From: Myxococcota bacterium
Lineage (GTDB): Bacteria > Myxococcota_C > UBA6777
Direction: 5' to 3'
Assembly (NCBI GenBank): GCA_023150835.1
Contig: JAKLKB010000108.1
Span: 1 to 46,850 of the forward strand
DNA: 46,850 nucleotides
Every line of letters starts with the position of its first letter. Positions within the stretch are counted from its first letter, which is position 1. This document shows positions 34,696 to 46,327 of this stretch, one piece after another. A program made the position numbers and the translations under genes. Under the pieces are notes generated by a model. That model worked only from the letters and a program-made list of their open reading frames with translations. It had not been told where the DNA came from and made no database searches.

Positions 34696-36615
34696 GTGCG
34701 AAAAGCCCAGCGAAAAATACAAACCAAGCGAGACGCACAACCCACACAAACCAAGCGAGACGCACAACCCACACAACCAACGCAAGCCAAAACCAAGCGA
34801 GACGCACAACCCACACAACCAACGCAAGCCAAAACCAAGCGAGACGCACCGCCAACGCAAGCCAAAACCAAGCGAGACGCACCGCCAACACCATCCAACA
34901 CCAAGCAAGAGGCGCAACTCACGCCAACCAAGCGAGATGTGCAGCGTGTTGTTGAGATGGAGAAAAAAGGGGACAGACGGAACGGAAAAGCGGGTGATCC
35001 TCAAGAGATAGGTCAGCTTTACGAGGTGTTGATCCACGATGTAAGCGCCCAAGGATACGGGGTTGGGCGCGATCCGCTTGGGCGTGCGGTCTTTGTTCCG
35101 TTGTCGGCCCCGGGTGACACGGTGCGCGCAAAAGTCGTACAACAACAACCGCGTTACTGGCAAGGCGAGATCGTCGAAGTGTTGCAAGCCTCGGCACAGC
35201 GGGTCGAACCGCGATGCCGTCATTTTGGTGTGTGTGGCGGGTGTGATTGGCAACACCTCGATCCAAAGACACAGACATCTGCGAAGCAGCAGATCTTGTT
35301 TGAAACCCTCCGTCGTGTCGGAAAGATCGATCTTGCAGAAGTGCCACGTATCTCTTCTTCTGCGCAGGTTTGGGGATGCCGCGATCGTGCGCGCTTTCAT
35401 GTCGATGAACATGGTCGATTGGGATTTTTTGCGCGTGGTTCTCGCCAACACGTCGCGATCTCTCGCTGTCCTGTCTTGCACCCCGCTTTGCAGCGTCTCG
35501 TATCGATCTTGCGCGAATATACCCCCAAATTGTTGTTGCCGTTGCATGAGATCTGTGTCTTGGCTGAAGATTCGTGCGAAACGATGGAAGGTTCGGTCGT
35601 TTCGGAAGGTTCGGTTGTTTCGGAAGGCTCGGCTGTTTCGGAAGGCTCGGCTGTTTCGGAAGATTCAGTCGTTTCGGAAGGTTCGGCTGTTGTTGTTGGG
35701 GCGGCTGTTTCGGAAGATTCGGCTATTTTGGAAGATTCGGCTGTTTCCAAGGGCGAACAGCACTTATTTATGGATATCTGTACGGTATCTTCGGAGGGAT
35801 GGTTGTCAGCGCGTGCAGAGGCGGGTGTTTTGCTGTCTTTTCATTTGGATCATGCGGCGCAGTCGTGGAATGCTGCGAAGTGGAAAGATGCAAAAGCCGA
35901 GTACTTGGGCTGGTTCGAGAGATTGAGAGCGGAGGCGGTGGATATCCGAGGGGCTTCGTTGTGGTGCGAGACGAAACGGATCGCGCAGTGGGGCGAAGAG
36001 GTGCTGCGGGTAGGAGAAGAAGGCGTTCGTTATCGAGCCGAAGGGTTTGCACAGGCGAACTTTCGACAGAATCAAGTGTTGCGGGAGGCGGTGCGTTCGG
36101 TGGTTGCGCGTGTTTCGCCTCGTCATCTGGTGGAGATCTATGCGGGCAGCGGGAATCTGAGTTTTGCGGTTGTCAAAGAGTGCGAGCGGCTGTTGGCTTT
36201 GGAAGGAAACCCCCAAGCGGTTGAAGACGCGCAAGAAACGCTGCGGAGGCTCAGGGAGGAGCGGCGTCTGCCTTCGGTGGGGATAGATATCCTGCGTTTT
36301 GATGATCGCTTCGATCGATTGGAGGATATCTGCGCAAAGATGGCGATGAAGGTGGACTTGTTGTTGGTGGACCCACCGCGTCGAGGGATCGCCAAAGAGA
36401 TGATGCAGCAGATCAACTTGTTGCGTCCGCCAGCGATCGTGTACGTTTCTTGTGATCCCGCGACGTTGGCGCGAGATCTTCACGGATGGATCGGTCTGGG
36501 TTACCAACTCGAACACCTTGAGATCGTGGATCTGATGCCGCAAACGGCCCACCTCGAAGCCGTGTCGTTGTTGCGCCTGTCCCATCCGCGCCCAGCGACT
36601 CGGTGGCAGTCATAA
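34696..36615 (+). CDS. RlmD/TrmA-family RNA (uracil-C5) methyltransferase with two repeat insertions
   Basis: About 639 residues from the GTG at 34696 (AGAGGG 9 nt upstream, 2 bp after the previous stop); the ATG near residue 86 is an alternative. The family is usually 430-460 residues. Residues 5-80 are a basic tandem repeat (KTKRDAQPTQPTQA). Residues 105-162 are a TRAM RNA-binding domain. The iron-sulphur cysteines are in CRHFGVCGGCDWQH (about 173-182) and SRCPVL (256). Residues about 294-354 are a second repeat insert (VSEGSAVSEDS). The SAM domain follows: LVEIYAGSGNLSF (478), DPPRRG (559), SCDPATLARD with the catalytic Cys (586), PQTAHLEAV (615). All catalytic motifs are intact. Predicted target is a uridine in rRNA or tRNA. 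Confidence 0.9.
   Translation: MRKAQRKIQTKRDAQPTQTKRDAQPTQPTQAKTKRDAQPTQPTQAKTKRDAPPTQAKTKRDAPPTPSNTKQEAQLTPTKRDVQRVVEMEKKGDRRNGKAGDPQEIGQLYEVLIHDVSAQGYGVGRDPLGRAVFVPLSAPGDTVRAKVVQQQPRYWQGEIVEVLQASAQRVEPRCRHFGVCGGCDWQHLDPKTQTSAKQQILFETLRRVGKIDLAEVPRISSSAQVWGCRDRARFHVDEHGRLGFFARGSRQHVAISRCPVLHPALQRLVSILREYTPKLLLPLHEICVLAEDSCETMEGSVVSEGSVVSEGSAVSEGSAVSEDSVVSEGSAVVVGAAVSEDSAILEDSAVSKGEQHLFMDICTVSSEGWLSARAEAGVLLSFHLDHAAQSWNAAKWKDAKAEYLGWFERLRAEAVDIRGASLWCETKRIAQWGEEVLRVGEEGVRYRAEGFAQANFRQNQVLREAVRSVVARVSPRHLVEIYAGSGNLSFAVVKECERLLALEGNPQAVEDAQETLRRLREERRLPSVGIDILRFDDRFDRLEDICAKMAMKVDLLLVDPPRRGIAKEMMQQINLLRPPAIVYVSCDPATLARDLHGWIGLGYQLEHLEIVDLMPQTAHLEAVSLLRLSHPRPATRWQS
34706..34925. repeat. Coding minisatellite in the methyltransferase N-terminus
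   Basis: ACCAAGCGAGACGCAC recurs about seven times in units of about 27-39 bp, joined by CAACCCACACAACCAACGCA. It encodes (QA)KTKRDAQPTQ. The composition differs from the rest of the gene. Confidence 0.9.
35585..35757. repeat. Coding 15-bp minisatellite inside the methyltransferase
   Basis: About ten units of GGTTCGGYTGTTTCGGAA type, encoding GSVVSE / GSAVSE / DSVVSE. It interrupts the region between the iron-sulphur and SAM domains. Confidence 0.9.
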
Positions 36616-38585: not shown

Positions 38586-39554
38586 TCAAAAAAGCTTATC
38601 GAGCGGGCTGTGTACGGAAATTCTGCTTTGTTGCAAAACATGCGTATAGATCATCGTCGTGCTTACATCTTTGTGTCCCAAAAGTTCTTGAATTGTACGG
38701 ATATCGTAGCCCGCATCCAGCAGATGGGTTGCGAAGCTGTGCCGAAAAACATGTGTGCTTACACGTTTTTGGATGCGTGTATCTTTGCATGCCTTATGAA
38801 TCGCACGTTGTAATGTGTCTGGGCTCATGTAGAATCGGCGTGTTTTCCCTGTTTCTCGACAGATGCTTCGCGTTGTTGAGGGAAAGACATACTGCCAGAG
38901 CCATTCTTTCGGGGCGTTGGGCAGTTTTCTTGCCAAAGCAAACGGTAGAAACACTTCGCCGTAGCCTTCTGCACAATCTTTCTGATGAATCTCGTTAACC
39001 TTTCGTAAGTGCTCTTGTAGCGGTTCCACTAGAGAACCGGGCAACATCGTTCTGCGTGCTTTCCCACCTTTGCCGTCTTGCACCAAGATGATCCGCTGCC
39101 CGAAGTCGATGTCTTTGATTCGTAAAGATAAGCATTCTTGGGCTCTTAGCCCTCCACCGTACAATATCTGCGTTGCGAGTTTCGTTGCTCCTGTCATCTG
39201 AGATAAAATATGCTGTACTTCTTCTTTTGTCAGCACTGTCGGAAGATAACGGGATTCTCGTGCTCGCAGCGCGTCGATCTTCCCCTTGAGATCGACTTTG
39301 AGAACTTGTTTGTAAAGAAACAAAAGTGCGTGAAATGCTTGGTTTTGTGTCGAAGCAGACACGTTCTCTTTCGCTGCAAGGTGGGTCAGAAAGGCTTCGA
39401 TTTCCATGTCTCCCATCTCTCTGGGATGTCGTTTGTTGTGGAAGAGGATGTAGCGGCGGATCCAGTTTGTGTAGCTCTTTTCTGTTCGGTATGCGTAACG
39501 CTGCAACCGCATCGTCTCTCTCACTTGCTCAAGCAATTTCGGCGATTTTTCCAT
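38586..39554 (-). CDS. intI: Integron integrase (IntI-type tyrosine recombinase)
   Basis: 322 residues, AGGAGG about 10 nt before the ATG. It recombines attI with attC sites in single-stranded cassette DNA. N-terminal SAM-like DNA-binding domain at residues 1-95. The catalytic set of tyrosine recombinases is complete: Arg137 (GGGLRAQE), His268 and Arg271 (HVFRH), His294 (LLGHKD) and Tyr303 (MIYTHV). The diagnostic IntI insertion that sets it apart from XerC/D is at about 202-224: LPFALARKLPNAPKEWLWQY. The gene reads away from the cassettes, as in all integrons. It is intact and should be active. GC is lower than in ychF next to it. Confidence 0.96.
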   Translation of the reverse strand: MEKSPKLLEQVRETMRLQRYAYRTEKSYTNWIRRYILFHNKRHPREMGDMEIEAFLTHLAAKENVSASTQNQAFHALLFLYKQVLKVDLKGKIDALRARESRYLPTVLTKEEVQHILSQMTGATKLATQILYGGGLRAQECLSLRIKDIDFGQRIILVQDGKGGKARRTMLPGSLVEPLQEHLRKVNEIHQKDCAEGYGEVFLPFALARKLPNAPKEWLWQYVFPSTTRSICRETGKTRRFYMSPDTLQRAIHKACKDTRIQKRVSTHVFRHSFATHLLDAGYDIRTIQELLGHKDVSTTMIYTHVLQQSRISVHSPLDKLF

Positions 39555-39895
39555 CTTTTTGGTTCCTCCTGTGGTGGTTCGGGTGATTTGTCGGCTTTGT
39601 CAAAAATCATGCCGATGCGTTGCCTTTGCTCTTTTTCGTTGCTTTCCGTGTGTAAGTTCTTGAATAAGTGAGGTATGCGCATATTGTGCGTGATATCTGT
39701 GCAGCACGAGCGTTATCCCACACGGAGCGACGAAAAGACAGGCGATCCTGCGTGATAATCTTTTATCTGGTGGATATCGAGGCAGAATGTGCTTGACTTT
39801 GTCTATTTCGTCGGTTATACCTGACACCTATGCGGTGATAACTGGCGAAATCCTGTATTATCATGCAAGTCTGCTGGATAATGATATCGTTCGGC
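39555..39895. other. attI region between integrase and first cassette
   Basis: This 335-bp region should hold the integrase promoter, the cassette promoter and attI. The crossover core GTTCGGC is at 39889-39895, cut between G39889 and T39890. The 150 bp before it contain several GATAA-type motifs (for example GATAAT near 39754 and 39878), possible integrase-binding repeats. No LexA-like site was recognised, so SOS control is not evident. No gene seen. Confidence 0.7.
39794..39822 (+). promoter_or_regulatory. Cassette promoter Pc candidate
   Basis: TTGACT (39794-39799), a 17-bp spacer and TATACC (39817-39822), pointing into the array with start near 39829, 60 bp before the attI junction. Position and orientation match integron Pc promoters. 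Confidence 0.75.
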
Positions 39896-39907
39896 AAAAA
39901 AATTTTC

Positions 39908-39934
39908 TTGACACGGTTATATAAATGGTAACCT
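39908..39934 (+). promoter_or_regulatory. Possible promoter inside cassette 1
   Basis: A perfect TTGACA (39908-39913) with TAACCT (39929-39934) at a short 15-bp spacing, or TAAATA (39934-39939) at 20 bp. Neither spacing is ideal. It would let the cassette be expressed without Pc. Confidence 0.4.
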
Positions 39935-39966
39935 AAATACTTTATTTGACTTGCAAGGAGAAAACT

Positions 39967-40359
39967 ATGTTTGAATTTCTTAAGAACTTAAGCGCAATCT
40001 TTCAAAGCAAACCTTCTTTGTCGGACCTGCAAACTTTGCAATCTGCGGCGCGGAAGATCAATGATTGGCTCGCATCCATTCTCCCTATCAGCCCAGAAAT
40101 AGTTTCCCAAATGTCTTATGCAGACGCCATTCGCTATTTCGTCGAAGATAAGCCTAATGATTCAAGCATTGTTAAGGGCGCAATGTTATTGCAAGAACAT
40201 CCTCAAGGAAAACTTTTTGTACAGGTGTTCTTGAATGGTGACAATGAATTGGTGTGCAAGTCTGATGGGAAACCATACGGTCGGCGTCTCATTGTACGCA
40301 GTTTGGATTCGGAGTTAAAAGAAACATTTGGAAACGAAGAACTGGTGGTAGTTGAATAA
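39967..40359 (+). CDS. Cassette 1 protein A: small soluble protein
   Basis: 130 residues, AAGGAG 6 nt before the ATG. No membrane helix; N-terminal 75 residues are helical (FEFLKNLSAIFQSKPSLSDL, QMSYADAIRYFVEDKP). The C-terminal 45 residues (KLFVQVFLNGDNELV then RRLIVRSLDSELKETFGNEE LVVVE, split) resemble the ends of the next two proteins: a KxxxVQxxF strand, a RxIxxxxLDxEL helix and an EELVVxE tail. No known domain recognised. First gene of the cassette operon, 17 bp from the next. Confidence 0.75.
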   Translation: MFEFLKNLSAIFQSKPSLSDLQTLQSAARKINDWLASILPISPEIVSQMSYADAIRYFVEDKPNDSSIVKGAMLLQEHPQGKLFVQVFLNGDNELVCKSDGKPYGRRLIVRSLDSELKETFGNEELVVVE

Positions 40360-40376
40360 TTCAAAAGGAGTTCCCG

Positions 40377-40685
40377 ATGCCATTTCCAATTATAGGGATT
40401 ATCTTGGCTGCAGTTGCTACTGTTGCCGTCACAGTGCTGCTTATTGTTTATTGGAACGACATTGTTGATTGGTTTCGTTCAAGAAACGATATTAAGGTTG
40501 AGGACAGAGACAACATAGCCTTCACCCTTCAAGAAAAACTGGCCAACGGAAATTACAAAACAGTGCAAGGCATATTCAATACCAGAACGAATACTCTCAA
40601 AGATGGCAGAGCAATAGAATCAAAACAAGTAGATGAAGAGTTACACCAACTGCATAAGGAAGAAGAGTTGGTTGTTTACGAATAA
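40377..40685 (+). CDS. Cassette 1 protein B: small one-TM protein
   Basis: 102 residues, GGAG 6 nt before the ATG. It starts MPFPIIGIILAAVATVAVTV, a membrane helix with almost no N-terminal tail, then WNDIVDWFRSRNDIKVEDRD. The C-terminal half (LANGNYKTVQGIFNTRTN, GRAIESKQVDEELHQL, EEELVVYE) is the shared segment. It is a clear paralogue of protein C (both start MPFPII and share W-D-I-V-x-W-F and LANGxYK). Not a recognised family. 10 bp before the next gene. Confidence 0.8.
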   Translation: MPFPIIGIILAAVATVAVTVLLIVYWNDIVDWFRSRNDIKVEDRDNIAFTLQEKLANGNYKTVQGIFNTRTNTLKDGRAIESKQVDEELHQLHKEEELVVYE

Positions 40686-40695
40686 GGAGAAAAAG

Positions 40696-40986
40696 ATGCC
40701 TTTTCCAATTATACCGATAATAATCGGTGCGTTGACCGCAGTGGCAGCAACTACTTTGATTGTCGCTTGCTGGGATGAGATTGTGGGATGGTTTTCCGAA
40801 AAGAAAACGGATATTAACGACTACGGAGAATTGATCAAACACAGGCTGGCAAACGGAAAATATAAGCTTGTTGGCGGTGTTTTTTCTTCTAGGGGAATGA
40901 AAAAAGCCGAAAACGTGTGGGAAACAGAGCAACTCGATGATGAACTTCAAAAGAAATTTGCTTACTCTAACCAGATAAGGATTTGA
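40696..40986 (+). CDS. Cassette 1 protein C: small one-TM paralogue of B
   Basis: 96 residues, AAGGAG 6 nt before the ATG. MPFPIIPIIIGALTAVAATT gives a membrane helix, then CWDEIVGWFSEKKTDINDYG. The C-terminal part (LANGKYKLVGGVFSSRGMKK, ETEQLDDELQKKF) aligns with protein B but ends NQIRI in place of ELVVYE. Its TGA is followed 6 nt later, in the same frame, by the TTG where the AAA+ gene begins. Confidence 0.8.
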   Translation: MPFPIIPIIIGALTAVAATTLIVACWDEIVGWFSEKKTDINDYGELIKHRLANGKYKLVGGVFSSRGMKKAENVWETEQLDDELQKKFAYSNQIRI

Positions 40987-40992
40987 TTTATC

Positions 40993-42183
40993 TTGAAAAG
41001 CTCCGATGGAAAATCCGGTATAAATTGGCAGATACATGGAATTCCAACCGATATTCCAAGCGCAGAGGCGGCTATATGCCGTTCAAGACTACTACGAGCA
41101 GTTACAGAACTTGAACCTTGGATAGACCGATTGAATTCGGACTTTGCAATTTCTATTGGCGAAGAAGCAACCTTAACAAAATTATATAACCGACCTGAAT
41201 CAAAAAAAAACGAAAACGAAGAGCTGTTTGATACCTCCAAACGTGCGGAGCAATACCAATCGTACCCGCCGTTTTATACTTTTGATCACTTGATTGTTCC
41301 GACAGAAGTAAAAGAAAACTTGTTATCTGCTGTTGAATTGCTTAAAGTAGAAAAAATTGTATTTGATGATTGGGGATTAAGAGAAATTGAACCTTTTCCT
41401 AGAACCGCTCTCAATTTTTATGGGCCACCAGGAACAGGTAAAACTTTAGCTGCGCATGCTTTAGCGCATTTTTTGAATCGCCCAATCCTTGTTGCGAGTT
41501 ACGCAGAGATAGAAAGTAAATTTCATGGCGATGGTCCAAAAAATGTTAAAGCCATCTTTCACGCCGCAGAGCGCGACAAAGCTGTTTTGTTTATAGATGA
41601 GGCAGACTCTCTACTTTCCAAAAGGCTTTTAAATGTTACTCAAGGCTCAGAGCAGGCAATTAATTCAATGAGAAGCCAATTACTTATTTGCTTAGAGCAG
41701 TTTACAGGTATTTCTATTTTTTCTACAAATTTGGTTGAAAATTATGACAAAGCTTTTGAGACACGAATTCGCCACGTTTGCTTTTCTATGCCAGATAAAG
41801 AGTGCCGGTATAGAATTTGGAGGCGCCATTTAGTCGAAAAACTGCCTTTGTCTGAAGATATCAATTTGGAACAGTTGGCTTCGGATGTGGAGAATGTCTG
41901 CGGAAGGGATATCAAAAATGCAGTCATCGATGCGGCTGTGAGAGCCGCCAGAGAAGAGAGAACTCATGTCACTATGAACGACTTACTATGCTCGATCACT
42001 AGAATTACACAAGAAAGAAGTTCTGTGTCGGAAGGATATAGGCCACTAAACCAAGATGAATTTATTGAAGTACAAGGAAAAGTTCAGCGAATGTTACGAG
42101 ATAACGATGATGCCGAACAAATCGCAGCAGCGGACCGGCAGGGCATAGTTAACCAAGCAGAACAATCCACTGAAACGCCATAA
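40993..42183 (+). CDS. Cassette 1 protein D: AAA+ ATPase
   Basis: 396 residues from the TTG at 40993 (AAGGA about 11 nt upstream); no in-frame ATG is near. Residues 1-95 are an unassigned N-domain. The classical AAA module has Walker A GPPGTGKT (144-151), Walker B VLFIDEAD (198-205), a pore-loop-like SKFHGDGPKN (175-184, compare SKYVGESEKN in Vps4/katanin types), sensor 1 STN (244-246), arginine finger in FETRIRH (Arg258), and sensor 2 GRDIKN (Arg305). All are intact, so it should form an active hexamer that threads or remodels a partner. The last 24 residues are encoded by the attC site and read as a low-complexity Gln/Ala tail. Partners are presumably proteins A-C. Confidence 0.9.
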   Translation: MKSSDGKSGINWQIHGIPTDIPSAEAAICRSRLLRAVTELEPWIDRLNSDFAISIGEEATLTKLYNRPESKKNENEELFDTSKRAEQYQSYPPFYTFDHLIVPTEVKENLLSAVELLKVEKIVFDDWGLREIEPFPRTALNFYGPPGTGKTLAAHALAHFLNRPILVASYAEIESKFHGDGPKNVKAIFHAAERDKAVLFIDEADSLLSKRLLNVTQGSEQAINSMRSQLLICLEQFTGISIFSTNLVENYDKAFETRIRHVCFSMPDKECRYRIWRRHLVEKLPLSEDINLEQLASDVENVCGRDIKNAVIDAAVRAAREERTHVTMNDLLCSITRITQERSSVSEGYRPLNQDEFIEVQGKVQRMLRDNDDAEQIAAADRQGIVNQAEQSTETP

Positions 42184-42236
42184 AGATAGACATTTCAATA
42201 ATTTCCCTGCCAGCCCGCTGTGCTCAGGCGTTGGGC
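42112..42236 (+). other. attC of cassette 1
   Basis: R'' GCCGAAC (42112-42118), then AAATCGCAGCAGCGGACCGG; the stem CAGCGGACCGGCAGGG (about 42127-42142) pairs with CCCTGCCAGCCCGCTG (42205-42220) with two mismatches. The apex is about 60 nt. It closes TGCTCAGGC and core GTTGGGC (42230-42236), cut after G42230. AACAAATCGC and CTCAGGCG are shared with the second attC. Confidence 0.88.
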
Positions 42237-42240
42237 ATCA

Positions 42241-42270
42241 TGTCAAATTGTGGGTGTATCCAATTTGACA
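42241..42270. promoter_or_regulatory. Perfect operator-like dyad overlapping a -35 box
   Basis: TGTCAAATTG (42241-42250) and its exact reverse complement CAATTTGACA (42261-42270) are separated by 10 bp. The right arm contains the TTGACA of the first promoter. It is well placed for a repressor or for autoregulation by the methyltransferase or HNH protein. No helix-turn-helix C protein is encoded in the cassette. Confidence 0.7.
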
Positions 42271-42310
42271 CAATCTCGTTGTTGACATACATATTTGCGT
42301 CTGATAAGGT
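42265..42310 (+). promoter_or_regulatory. Two overlapping promoters of the restriction-modification cassette
   Basis: TTGACA (42265-42270), 17 bp, TACATA (42288-42293); and TTGACA (42282-42287), 17 bp, TAAGGT (42305-42310). Both -35 boxes are perfect. The first start codon is 40 bp beyond the second. Confidence 0.7.
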
Positions 42311-42349
42311 TGTTCTTGTTCATAGATTCGACATGGCAAGGAGCGTGAA

Positions 42350-42634
42350 ATGTCGTATAATAATGATGAACTCAACTGGGTTTATGACCGAACAGGTGGT
42401 TATTGTTTCTATTGCGGTATAAAGCTGGCTTTTGTTAATTATGGTAAAGTTGGTAACCGAGGATGTTGGGAAGTGGATCATTTTATCCCTTTAGCAAGCA
42501 ACGGAGCCCATCAACCCTATAATTGGGTTCCCGCTTGTGTTGATTGTAATACTCGCAAAAGTAACCTGTTGCCTTGGCATTTCATGCCCGATAGATTTTC
42601 TCAAGGTGAACGAGATCCTGAGAATTATTTATAA
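42350..42634 (+). CDS. HNH-family endonuclease-like protein
   Basis: 94 residues, AAGGAG 6 nt before the ATG. A complete small HNH fold: CFYCG (zinc), WEVDHFIPLASNGAHQPYNW (His of the first strand and Asn of the helix) and ACVDCNTRKSN (second CxxC and closing His/Asn region). The family includes free-standing nicking or restriction endonucleases. It precedes the Eco29kI-like endonuclease by 72 bp. It might be a second restriction enzyme, a nickase, or a repair factor (Vsr-like role, not Vsr sequence). Alternatively it is an independent passenger. Confidence 0.88.
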   Translation: MSYNNDELNWVYDRTGGYCFYCGIKLAFVNYGKVGNRGCWEVDHFIPLASNGAHQPYNWVPACVDCNTRKSNLLPWHFMPDRFSQGERDPENYL

Positions 42635-42705
42635 AAAAATGGCTGTGGTATGTTTCAATGAGTTATTTGGTCGATAATCTTCTGGACTGAGGGAATATTC
42701 AATTC

Positions 42706-43353
42706 ATGGTGCAGTTTGATCGCAACGAACACGTCTTTCATTCTCCTGATTTTGAAGAAATTGTTAAGGATACAATTCGTTTCTTTAATGGTACACCTGT
42801 TCTTTCCATCCCAGTTCCTGAGAGATTTCATGGAACAGGCGTTTATGCAATATATTGCATCACTAAGGTCGGTTTGTACAAAGATTTTCACGAGATCAAT
42901 CGAACCTCTTATCGCGTCCCGATTTACATAGGAAAAGCAGTTCCTAAAGGCTGGAGGCAGGCTCGTACTTTAAGTTCAGAAGATGAACTAAGTTATGAGT
43001 TGCATAACCGTATTAGAGAACATGGAAGAAGTTTGGACGCAAGTGAGCTAAATCGAGCGAATTTTCGCTGTCGTTTTATGATACTAGAAGGAGCAGAGAG
43101 TGATCTTATTGGCACAGTTGAAGCAGCTTTGATCAGAAATTATCTTCCTCTATGGAATACACTCATTGATGGATTTGGAAATCATGATCCAGGAAGTGGT
43201 CGATATGAACAGGCAAAATCTGACTGGGATGTCTGTCACCCTGGTAGACCGTGGGCAGAAAGATGTCAAGGAAAACATAATGATAAAGATGAGTTAATAG
43301 AGAAAATAAATTCTTTTATGAAAAATCTTCGGGAGAAATATAGTGATGCCTAA
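42706..43353 (+). CDS. Eco29kI-like GIY-YIG restriction endonuclease
   Basis: 215 residues, the size of Eco29kI. No strong ribosome-binding site. GIY-YIG motifs appear as GVYAIYC (Tyr47) and IYIGKA (Tyr74); further conserved positions include Arg102/Arg104 and His106 (NRIREHGRS) and Glu139 (GTVEAALIRNY). The segment WNTLIDGFGNHDPGSGRYEQ and the closing CHPGRPWAERC are characteristic of the Eco29kI/NgoMIII group, which cut CCGCGG. The same target is likely, not shown. Catalytic residues all appear present. It overlaps the methyltransferase gene by about 8-11 bp, unusual for a nuclease placed before its protecting enzyme. Confidence 0.9.
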   Translation: MVQFDRNEHVFHSPDFEEIVKDTIRFFNGTPVLSIPVPERFHGTGVYAIYCITKVGLYKDFHEINRTSYRVPIYIGKAVPKGWRQARTLSSEDELSYELHNRIREHGRSLDASELNRANFRCRFMILEGAESDLIGTVEAALIRNYLPLWNTLIDGFGNHDPGSGRYEQAKSDWDVCHPGRPWAERCQGKHNDKDELIEKINSFMKNLREKYSDA

Positions 43354-44551
43354 CATCTCTAGCCTAGAAATTTTTTCAGGTGCTGGTGGATTAGCAACGG
43401 GTATAGCTCAAAATAATGTCAAACATCATGCTCTAGTTGAATGGAATAAGGATGCTTGTCGAACACTAATGGAAAATTTCGATCCAAAAATTGTTCATAA
43501 TGTTGATATTCGCGATTTTGAATTCATTAAATACGGTCATGTTGATATTGTCGCTGGTGGGCCACCATGCCAGCCTTTTTCATTAGGTGGAAAACATAAA
43601 GGAAGCATAGATACTAGAGATATGTTTCCTTATGCCTGTAAGGCGATTTCGCAATGCAAACCATTAGCCTTTATTTTTGAAAACGTGAAAGGATTGCTAA
43701 GAAAGTCTTTCTCTACTTATTTCGAATATATTATATTGCGGTTAACTTATCCAGAAATTGAGATTGAAGATTCGGAACCCTGGGAAAAACATTTGAATAG
43801 ACTCGAAAAAATTCATACTTCTCAAAACTATAATGGTATTCGATATAATGTTCTATTTCGCTTGATTGATGCCGCAGATTACGGAATCCCACAACGTAGA
43901 GAACGTGTAATTATTGTTGGAATAAGAGAAGATTTAGGTATTGAGTGGTCTTTTCCCCCCCAAACTCATTCTCTTGAAGCGTTAATTTGGTCACAATTTG
44001 TAAGTCATGAATATTGGGAGAGACACAATATAATCCCTGTAAATGTTAACTGCTATGATGAGCGAACTCAAACTCTCATAGCAAAAGCACAACAGCAGGT
44101 AAGGATGTTTCCACCTGGAACAAAACCTTGGAGAACGATTAGAGATCAACTTAAAGATATACCTCAACCTGATGAACATGGAACCTTTCATTCAGAGCAT
44201 ATTCTTCGAGATGGGGCTCGGGTTTATCCTGGTCACACGGGGAGTTTTATTGATTTTCCATCGAAAACACTAAAGGCTGGAGATCATGGTGTTCCGGGTG
44301 GTGAAAACATGATTAGGTATGACGATGGTCGTGTCAGATATTACACTACTTATGAGGCAAAGTTAATACAGACTTTTCCGTCAAATTATAAAATATGTGG
44401 TTCGTGGACTGAAAGTATGAGACAAATTGGAAATGCTGTACCAGTCAAATTGGCCCAAATTATTTCTAATTCAATTATTAAGCAAATTGCGAAGTGTATG
44501 GATGCCCAACAAATCGCTGCACGCCGACTGCCGAACGCGGGCGTTGCTTGA
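43346..44551 (+). CDS. DNA (cytosine-C5) methyltransferase
   Basis: 401 residues from the ATG at 43346 (GGAG 10 nt upstream; the adjoining GTG at 43343 is the alternative). Motif I EIFSGAGGLATG, motif IV GGPPCQPFS with catalytic Cys75, motif VI FENVKG, motif VIII RRERVIIVG and motif X IGNAVPVKL are all intact. It forms 5-methylcytosine at the endonuclease target. The region between motifs VIII and IX holds the target-recognition domain. The last 17 residues (DAQQIAARRLPNAGVA) come from the attC stem. Confidence 0.95.
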   Translation: MPNISSLEIFSGAGGLATGIAQNNVKHHALVEWNKDACRTLMENFDPKIVHNVDIRDFEFIKYGHVDIVAGGPPCQPFSLGGKHKGSIDTRDMFPYACKAISQCKPLAFIFENVKGLLRKSFSTYFEYIILRLTYPEIEIEDSEPWEKHLNRLEKIHTSQNYNGIRYNVLFRLIDAADYGIPQRRERVIIVGIREDLGIEWSFPPQTHSLEALIWSQFVSHEYWERHNIIPVNVNCYDERTQTLIAKAQQQVRMFPPGTKPWRTIRDQLKDIPQPDEHGTFHSEHILRDGARVYPGHTGSFIDFPSKTLKAGDHGVPGGENMIRYDDGRVRYYTTYEAKLIQTFPSNYKICGSWTESMRQIGNAVPVKLAQIISNSIIKQIAKCMDAQQIAARRLPNAGVA

Positions 44552-44605
44552 TCTCACGTGTACACATATCCCGCGTTCGTCAGCGGGTGAGCTCAGGCGT
44601 TGGCC
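44504..44605 (+). other. attC of cassette 2
   Basis: R'' GCCCAAC (44504-44510), AAATCGCTGCACGCCGAC; stem CGAACGCGGG (about 44532-44541) pairs perfectly with CCCGCGTTCG (44570-44579); then TCAGCGGGTGAGCTCAGGC and core GTTGGCC (44599-44605), cut after G44599. The stem bulges are those typical of attC. It overlaps the methyltransferase C-terminus. Confidence 0.9.
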
Positions 44606-45043
44606 TTGAAACATCAACAAAAACATGACTTTGCTGTGCTTGCAAAAAACAAAAACATCTGGAACAAAATTTTCCTTTGACTAAACTTGCAAAAATCCGT
44701 TTGCTTACAACTACCGAAAGAACAACATTTGATAGCAAGGTTCGGTTGAAAGTGTGATAAAGAGTGAAAAGGAAACCCTGTTCTATCCGATATTTTTGAT
44801 GGCCACTCGAACACCATTTTTCTCGAAACATGCTATGAAAAGTGGTTTTCTTGCCGCTGATTTTTGGAAACAAGGCAAAGTTCTACGGAGCAGGTAAATA
44901 TTTCTCTTGCCATGGTTCTTTATCATGAGTAAGCTGGGAACTCTCAATGTAGAAGTATCAGAAGGTGAAGTTTGAAATATTAAGTGAAATCAGTTGAGTA
45001 ATTTATTTTGTACTTTCTGAAAAAAACAAGATGGAATATAAAA
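44606..45043. other. Gene-free AT-rich stretch at the start of the third insert
   Basis: Begins at the third cassette core TTGGCC. No supported gene; a minus-strand frame of 97 codons crosses the attC and lacks a ribosome-binding site. The sequence is A-rich. No clear promoter was found for the PLD gene. Confidence 0.5.
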
Positions 45044-46327
45044 ATGAGTGAACAAATACCTCTATTCCTCTTTGATGGTCCAACAAACCTAACACTCATA
45101 CCAGATCCCAGTTCTACACTATCCGTCACTGACACGTTCAACACACTCTTAAAAAAATGCATTTCCCTACGTTCATCCATAGCATTTTGCGTATCCCCTC
45201 CATCCACAAACGAAAAGCTCCTCGCATTAAAGCTATCCCGTGGATTCCTTTGTACAGACATACATCTACCAACAAACATAGACTGGCTAACAAAAATGCA
45301 CAAAAAAGAAGCTAATATACTGCTACATCTAAGAAAACCCGTAGCCGAGAACATCTTAAAAGAACCAACCTCAGACATGCCTCAACATCTACTACACCAA
45401 AAAATAAGCTTATTTGATAACGAAGACAACTCCGCCACTATATGGATAGGCAGCCATAACTGGACTAGACGTGCATTCAATGGACCGAACGTTGAAACAT
45501 CAGTGATGATAAACACAAACAAAGACTCTGGGATATATAAGCAAGTATCCCTACAACTAGAAAACACTAAATCTCTGTGTGACAAATTCGAGCCCCAAAT
45601 GGCCGATTGGTATAAGTATTTACAAGGAGATAGGTTGTATGTTCATGTAGTGCAAGTACCCCGTGCAAAAACCACCATACACCGCTCGTTACTACCCACG
45701 ATTCATGAGAACGTCCAAGAAAGCGATGCTCTGCATATAATCAGCCTCTCAGACGAAGATATGCAGCAAATAAAAGTAAAAACAAATGAAGTCGTATATG
45801 TAGAAAGCGATGAAGAAAATGGCGAAGCAATTGCGTTCAGGGGTTACATACAGCAAGAAGGACTATCCCACAACATTCAGAACATCGCAAGTTCACCCAA
45901 AGATCTCATAATACTAAAACTAGACGATGGTAATTTTGAACTGCATACTAAACAAACAATAAATATCGGGACCCGCTTCTACTATATGACGCTCGGAGAA
46001 ATCCAAAAAACAGACGCCGAGTTAATCGACAACCAAAATGTACAATCATGGAACCTAAAAACACAAGACATGTTGCTAGAAAGAATGAGGCTATGTGATC
46101 GAATTGTTGACCAAGGTCAACACCTCACAAAAAAAGAGAGGGAAAGCCTATCATTCAAGCCATCCAAAGAACACCAGATAACAATAAAAAAGCCCAACAC
46201 GGAGCTTTGTGAACTCATAAAAAACAATGGAAAAACTAAATTTCAACACTCCCAAACAAGTCATTTAGTTCATAAACGACTGTTGCTACAGCTGGCTAGC
46301 CAATCTGCCGGACCTGTGCCAAAGTGA
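45044..46327 (+). CDS. PLD-family phosphodiesterase-like protein
   Basis: 427 residues from the ATG at 45044 (weak GGAA about 7 nt upstream; a TTG 12 codons earlier is open). One HKD motif, HQKISLFD (118-125), is followed by IGSHNW (135-140), the HxKx4D...GSxN signature of phospholipase D-type nucleases and phosphodiesterases. A single motif means it should act as a homodimer, as in Nuc/BfiI-type nucleases. The C-terminal 250 residues are unassigned, lysine/asparagine-rich, with segment GDRLYVHVVQVPRAKTTIHR. Codon use is strongly A-biased (many ATA and AGA codons), unlike the chromosome. It follows the second attC and a restriction system, so a DNA-cutting defence role is plausible. Confidence 0.8.
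   Translation: MSEQIPLFLFDGPTNLTLIPDPSSTLSVTDTFNTLLKKCISLRSSIAFCVSPPSTNEKLLALKLSRGFLCTDIHLPTNIDWLTKMHKKEANILLHLRKPVAENILKEPTSDMPQHLLHQKISLFDNEDNSATIWIGSHNWTRRAFNGPNVETSVMINTNKDSGIYKQVSLQLENTKSLCDKFEPQMADWYKYLQGDRLYVHVVQVPRAKTTIHRSLLPTIHENVQESDALHIISLSDEDMQQIKVKTNEVVYVESDEENGEAIAFRGYIQQEGLSHNIQNIASSPKDLIILKLDDGNFELHTKQTINIGTRFYYMTLGEIQKTDAELIDNQNVQSWNLKTQDMLLERMRLCDRIVDQGQHLTKKERESLSFKPSKEHQITIKKPNTELCELIKNNGKTKFQHSQTSHLVHKRLLLQLASQSAGPVPK

Follow-up and report, generated by a model that had tools for sequence, protein, structure and literature searches.

Several described systems pair an AAA+ ATPase with partner proteins, and the four-gene set reported here (genes A to D) resembles each of them in part. 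The anti-phage system IetAS, consisting of the AAA ATPase IetA (IteA) and the subtilase IetS, resembles the A–D set in being a small mobile operon with one classical AAA ATPase, but the cassette that carries A–D has no subtilase and has three additional proteins, whose family is unnamed; identity with IetAS was rejected, as ATPase D reaches 78 bits where the IteA cut-off is 510, and there is no peptidase match in A, B or C. The Vps4–ESCRT-III system, and bacterial PspA with its AAA ATPases (PMC11237479), likewise combine a classical AAA ATPase with several paralogous, membrane-proximal small proteins, but with Pfam there is neither an MIT domain on D nor a Snf7-type or PspA match among its partners, whose shared domain is predicted to be compact alpha/beta, and identity with Vps4–ESCRT-III was also rejected. 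In the TRIP13–HORMA and ternary MoxR–vWA chaperone/co-chaperone conflict systems (PMC7159879) an AAA+ ATPase is paired with a small adaptor partner, and HTH/NB-ARC, CHAT or Hsp70 proteins near some relatives of the A–D set are a further likeness. However, D is a classical AAA ATPase and neither MoxR nor TRIP13 (the TRIP13 models match it at 2.5e-9, below those for IetA), and there is no HORMA match in A to C and no vWA match in the set. FtsH was rejected because D lacks an M41 zinc-protease domain, has only AAA and AAA_lid_3 above cut-off, and reaches 64.9–94.7 bits where cut-offs of at least 600 apply. Unnamed plasmid operons in Moraxella osloensis and Comamonas resistens (L081:3953-6374 and L083:2866-5145) contain a distant AAA ATPase relative, whose AAA domain is 36–38% identical to that of D, beside a transmembrane (TM) protein that aligns to the B profile (hhalign 90%), together with two further uncharacterised proteins; they differ in having a reversed gene order, other partners, and no detected A domain. 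Integrons themselves are reported, in 2025 Science papers that appear among the references of PMC13092281, as carriers of phage-defence systems, and the likeness to the present case lies in the integron as a carrier of accessory genes, which are often defensive. The A–D set, however, is no named defence system, and such carriage is context and no proof of a defence role here. We place the set with the AAA+ remodellers that act with adaptors, on a domain family missing from the libraries searched, and it may still work like such adaptor-remodelling systems. A literature search, with bioRxiv preprints and most subscription journals outside its coverage, found no description of the four-gene set.

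The window analysed is a stretch of 46,850 nucleotides from a Myxococcota bacterium, and an integron occupies its last 8 kb (Table 1). An earlier note on this DNA had given the four-gene set exact cassette boundaries, and we reproduced these to the base by applying the G^TT cut to the motifs GTTCGGC, which begins at 39889, and GTTGGGC, which begins at 42230. Cassette 1 opens with GTTCGGC, seven bases that match the reverse complement of its own attC R'' arm without a mismatch, such that the arms would pair at 7/7 positions in the excised circle, and the same is true for cassette 2. No RNA family was found in the region with Rfam, after which the attC sites were examined by hand; in excised form they fold, as attC sites should, into bottom-strand hairpins of -62.9 and -50.7 kcal/mol for cassettes 1 and 2 respectively, with the bottom strand being the one that folds better. 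The G+C content of the first cassette (40.5%; 39–41% for cassette DNA overall) differs from that of the flanking host DNA (55.4%). Because each cassette start matches its own R'' arm, the attC sites fold on the bottom strand, and there is this contrast in G+C content, the cassette boundaries are no guess, and the four-gene unit is an integron cassette on every feature examined. Elsewhere in the host genome there is a second integrase-like gene (G000:C51:1751-2668), which lies in a 598-aa frame and shares 41% identity with the window's IntI, and the host part of the window contains two tandem-repeat arrays at 34703-34939 and 35568-35765, with units of about 42 bases and 18 bases.

The second cassette is also multi-gene, and its earlier assignment as a restriction-modification system was borne out by an Eco29kI-family restriction enzyme, a C5 cytosine methylase and an HNH protein; its position next door is weak evidence for a defence role of A–D. 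Past the second attC, the segment 44599-46850 has a low G+C content and a 439-aa open reading frame (45008-46327) with no NCBIfam match, and a closing attC bearing the expected GGCCAAC arm was not found within it.

Table 1. Features of the integron in the window, with positions numbered from the first base of the window.
Feature	Position	Strand	Basis and remarks
Integron integrase IntI	38586..39554	-	NCBIfam TIGR02249, 445 bits (cut-off 265); Pfam Phage_integrase
Putative attI-side region, intI to first cassette	39555..39889	.	Position only; its final base is the G of G^TT
First gene cassette (genes A to D and attC)	39890..42230	+	Start GTTCGGC and own R'' arm GCCGAAC fully complementary; 40.5% G+C
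Protein A, 130 aa, soluble, with the domain shared by A, B and C	39967..40359	+	No library match; profile comparison shows homology to B
Protein B, 102 aa, N-terminal TM helix and C-terminal shared domain	40377..40685	+	TM hydropathy 2.95
Protein C, 96 aa, B paralogue, one TM helix	40696..40986	+	39.6% identity with B across 91 aa
Protein D, 396 aa, single-domain classical AAA ATPase, TTG start	40993..42183	+	Pfam AAA (9.6e-24) and AAA_lid_3
attC of cassette 1	42112..42236	.	R'' 42112-42118 to R' 42230-42236; overlaps the end of gene D
Second cassette (HNH, Eco29kI-family restriction enzyme, C5 cytosine methylase)	42231..44599	+	Library matches; own exact attC
HNH protein gene, cassette 2	42350-42634	+	Library match
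Eco29kI-family restriction enzyme gene, cassette 2	42706-43353	+	Library match
C5 cytosine methylase gene, cassette 2	43343-44551	+	Library match
attC of cassette 2	44504..44605	.	R'' GCCCAAC (44504) is the reverse complement of the cassette 2 start GTTGGGC

The gene calls agree with the earlier description of four plus-strand genes with gaps of 17, 10 and 6 bp (A–B, B–C and C–D), and they have ribosome-binding sites of the AGGAG type for A, B and C, and AAGGA for D. The attC starts within the 3' end of gene D, so that the recombination site encodes its last ~23 residues, and in an alignment most D relatives end before this tail. Hydropathy predicts one strong N-terminal TM segment in each of B and C, and none in A or D. 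Protein A had been described as soluble, and B and C as paralogous one-TM proteins, all of which stands; but A is not unrelated to the other two, and profile comparison identifies it as a third paralogue, with A, B and C having one ~80-aa domain in common. A model seeded from B alone picks up A upon iteration, and comparison of an A-only with a B-only profile (hhalign) gives a score of 41.2 over the whole domain (probability 92%, P 7e-7), against a maximum of 17.2 with 40 column-shuffled B profiles, which rules out A as an unrelated soluble protein. In a quick tree (branch supports unread) the C protein of the window groups with the third gene of a Synergistaceae operon.

The AlphaFold2 model of A (pLDDT 84.9, with the core above 90) predicts a compact beta-alpha-beta-beta-beta-alpha-beta domain. 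Because the model of B is poor (pLDDT 61), its fold rests on the profile alignment; the model does suggest the same order of elements as in A, with the TM helix replacing the first strand. Searches of PDB and BFVD with the A model gave no clear relative (best Foldseek E 0.013 with a TM-score of 0.30, and best VIA-align Z 3.3), and the A-family sequence profile matched nothing significantly in PDB. The predicted fold is thus without a clear match among solved or viral structures, from which its novelty does not follow. Pfam, NCBIfam, PADLOC and PHROGs contain no family that matches A, B or C, and the domain family common to these three proteins is apparently unrecorded in those libraries.

That D is an intact classical AAA ATPase, as first proposed, is upheld by its Pfam matches and by the retention of all its catalytic motifs: Walker A (G144..GTGKT151), Walker B (D202E203), sensor 1 (N246) and the arginine finger (R258), which are mostly invariant in an alignment with about 22–23 relatives. 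An aromatic motif resembling a pore loop (ESxF/YHGxG) is conserved in every aligned relative except that on a Planktothrix plasmid (L037), and the relatives have a private N-terminal domain opening with I-x-G-I-P. One cyanobacterial relative adjoining A and B (L088:1776-3020) has an altered Walker B (LLHIEEAES) and is possibly inactive. The AAA domain of D resembles PAN, FtsH and Cdc48, and its best PADLOC matches are the IetA models (1.3e-24), although it matches defence-library models solely through this generic domain. With Pfam, D shows no protease domain, and none of the cassette genes encodes a protease.

The four genes had been expected to have a joint function because they travel together, and to belong to no described system. 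The first of these is supported by conserved co-occurrence in other phyla, and for the second, A–D match no named system in the four libraries searched. A search seeded with the ATPase recovered 28 loci and one Planktothrix plasmid, the hosts being cyanobacteria, Synergistaceae, Riflebacteria, Planctomycetota, Victivallales, Thiomargarita and Ktedonobacteraceae, and relatives of A and/or B/C are directly upstream of a well-preserved ATPase in 21 of 22 loci (the exception being L011). As this sample was chosen by the ATPase, the search was repeated with A as the seed, and the ATPase is within about 2.5 kb of a stand-alone A in 10 of 11 new genomes, with the remaining one ending at a contig end. 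These separately seeded searches rule out chance linkage, and homologues of A to C are repeatedly found beside the ATPase. One Synergistaceae genome has the identical A-B-C-D order, and on the Planktothrix plasmid five small A/B relatives precede the ATPase. Viral contigs yielded only distant ATPase relatives (34–40%), in phage gene neighbourhoods where A and B were not found beside them.

The set is rare in the genomes surveyed: B is present in 2 of 242 cyanobacteria, and 24 of the 291 genomes from one cyanobacterial order have A, as do 2/188 and 1/343 genomes of two other phyla. Within the phylum to which the window belongs, one of five genomes has the ATPase and the remaining four lack it. 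The rarity and patchiness of this distribution indicate a mobile accessory system, and we conclude that the set moves between bacteria as an accessory unit, which here is an integron cassette.

The genes around related loci are varied. In 13 of 17 cyanobacterial loci A has a divergently oriented neighbour that encodes an NTPase of NB-ARC type (AAA_35 type in one case), NB-ARC genes being common in these genomes generally, and the N-terminus of this NTPase looks like a helix-turn-helix, which would suit a dedicated regulator. TerB is encoded just downstream in both planctomycete loci, one of which also encodes a GTPase of the dynamin family that is weakly similar to LeoA/LeoBC, and there is a DnaJ-domain gene in the Riflebacteria locus. 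On the Planktothrix plasmid an Hsp70, TPR repeats and an A domain are joined in one protein (L037:4071-6170), encoded upstream of the five-copy A/B cluster and the ATPase; in a Planktothrix locus a HerA-like ATPase follows. The TerB, dynamin, DnaJ and Hsp70 neighbours fit with remodelling close to a membrane. On a Streptomyces plasmid (L086:2892-8385) a more distant ATPase relative, a CHAT-domain protein and two small proteins are encoded in a single gene run.

Several cyanobacteria encode a fusion protein of ~450 aa that starts with the A domain and also has a TM segment, an extended helical part and additional hydrophobic stretches. In all five loci compared (L163, L164, L165, L166 and L167) the fusion gene is divergent from the same NB-ARC gene and has no ATPase nearby, and at least six cyanobacterial genomes have such a fusion without any close ATPase. 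The A domain is therefore able to work without D, and looks like a general adaptor and more than a client of D-type ATPases; judged by gene arrangement, the fusion and its NB-ARC NTPase may be a related but separate two-gene system.

The reading we favour, though tentatively, is that A–D form a self-contained, mobile, membrane-associated AAA+ remodelling system in which D acts on a complex of A, B and C, most likely in stress or conflict. Proteins B and C would be anchored in the inner membrane by their single N-terminal helix, with the small domain facing the cytoplasm, and A would be a soluble version of this domain, through which all three probably join into a mixed membrane complex. D, a probable hexamer with an aromatic pore-loop motif, a private N-terminal domain and no protease, may dock on this complex through its N-terminal domain and remodel it through the pore, with the use of ATP leading to assembly, disassembly or extraction of complex members and presumably turning some membrane activity on or off. 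Co-occurrence of D with A, B and C is not interaction, and the ATPase-free A fusions count against this reading. A use in stress or conflict is most likely in view of the mobility, patchiness and neighbours of the set, with phage defence as the leading and a plausible candidate, although no defence-library model matches A, B or C. With less confidence, we also consider it possible that the wider family defines an undescribed class of immune or stress systems, with soluble, membrane-anchored, ATPase-coupled, Hsp70-fused and membrane-effector-fused forms, under the control of an HTH/NB-ARC NTPase in cyanobacteria and linked elsewhere to TerB, dynamin or DnaJ.

The foremost alternative, which we consider unlikely, is membrane-protein quality control, with D as a protease-less extractor like Msp1 or FtsH to which A, B and C deliver damaged membrane proteins, giving tolerance of envelope stress and not defence. 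The resemblance of its AAA domain to PAN, FtsH and Cdc48, the DnaJ and Hsp70-TPR neighbours, and the TerB and dynamin genes, which suit membrane stress, are all in keeping with such a function, but the very patchy spread and the carriage on an integron and plasmids are unlike housekeeping, and neither D nor the rest of the cassette provides a protease. It is more doubtful still that the set is a toxin–antitoxin or addiction module, in which B and/or C would be small membrane toxins kept inactive by A and D so as to stabilise the cassette array. The operon is tight and mobile, small one-TM proteins are a common form of toxin, and the fusion of the A domain to a protein with TM and further hydrophobic stretches is also compatible with this, but two to five paralogues plus an ATPase is an elaborate design, and the small membrane toxins that are known tend to be much shorter and to have no conserved ~80-aa domain in the cytoplasm. 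Polymerisation of A, B and C at the membrane and depolymerisation by D, as by Vps4 with ESCRT-III, would account for several small membrane-proximal paralogues beside one classical AAA ATPase, and for the dynamin gene in one locus, but we think it improbable, given that the predicted compact domain of A is unlike the long-helix ESCRT-III fold and that MIT and Snf7 matches are missing with Pfam. Least probable is a distant IetAS variant in which A, B and C replace or recruit the protease partner, as the IetA models, although the best PADLOC matches of D, leave it well below the IteA cut-off, and a subtilase is neither in the cassette nor seen among the neighbours examined.

The A–D set is a recurrent four-part module, now defined, in which three proteins come from a family absent from the four libraries, and it is complete in 2.3 kb and thus directly testable. 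If it is defensive, bacterial immunity would gain a strategy based on membrane-anchored AAA+ remodelling, and if it is not, it would be a new bacterial machine for membrane remodelling or quality control. The A domain beside HTH/NB-ARC NTPases also offers an entry point to little-studied cyanobacterial signalling genes.
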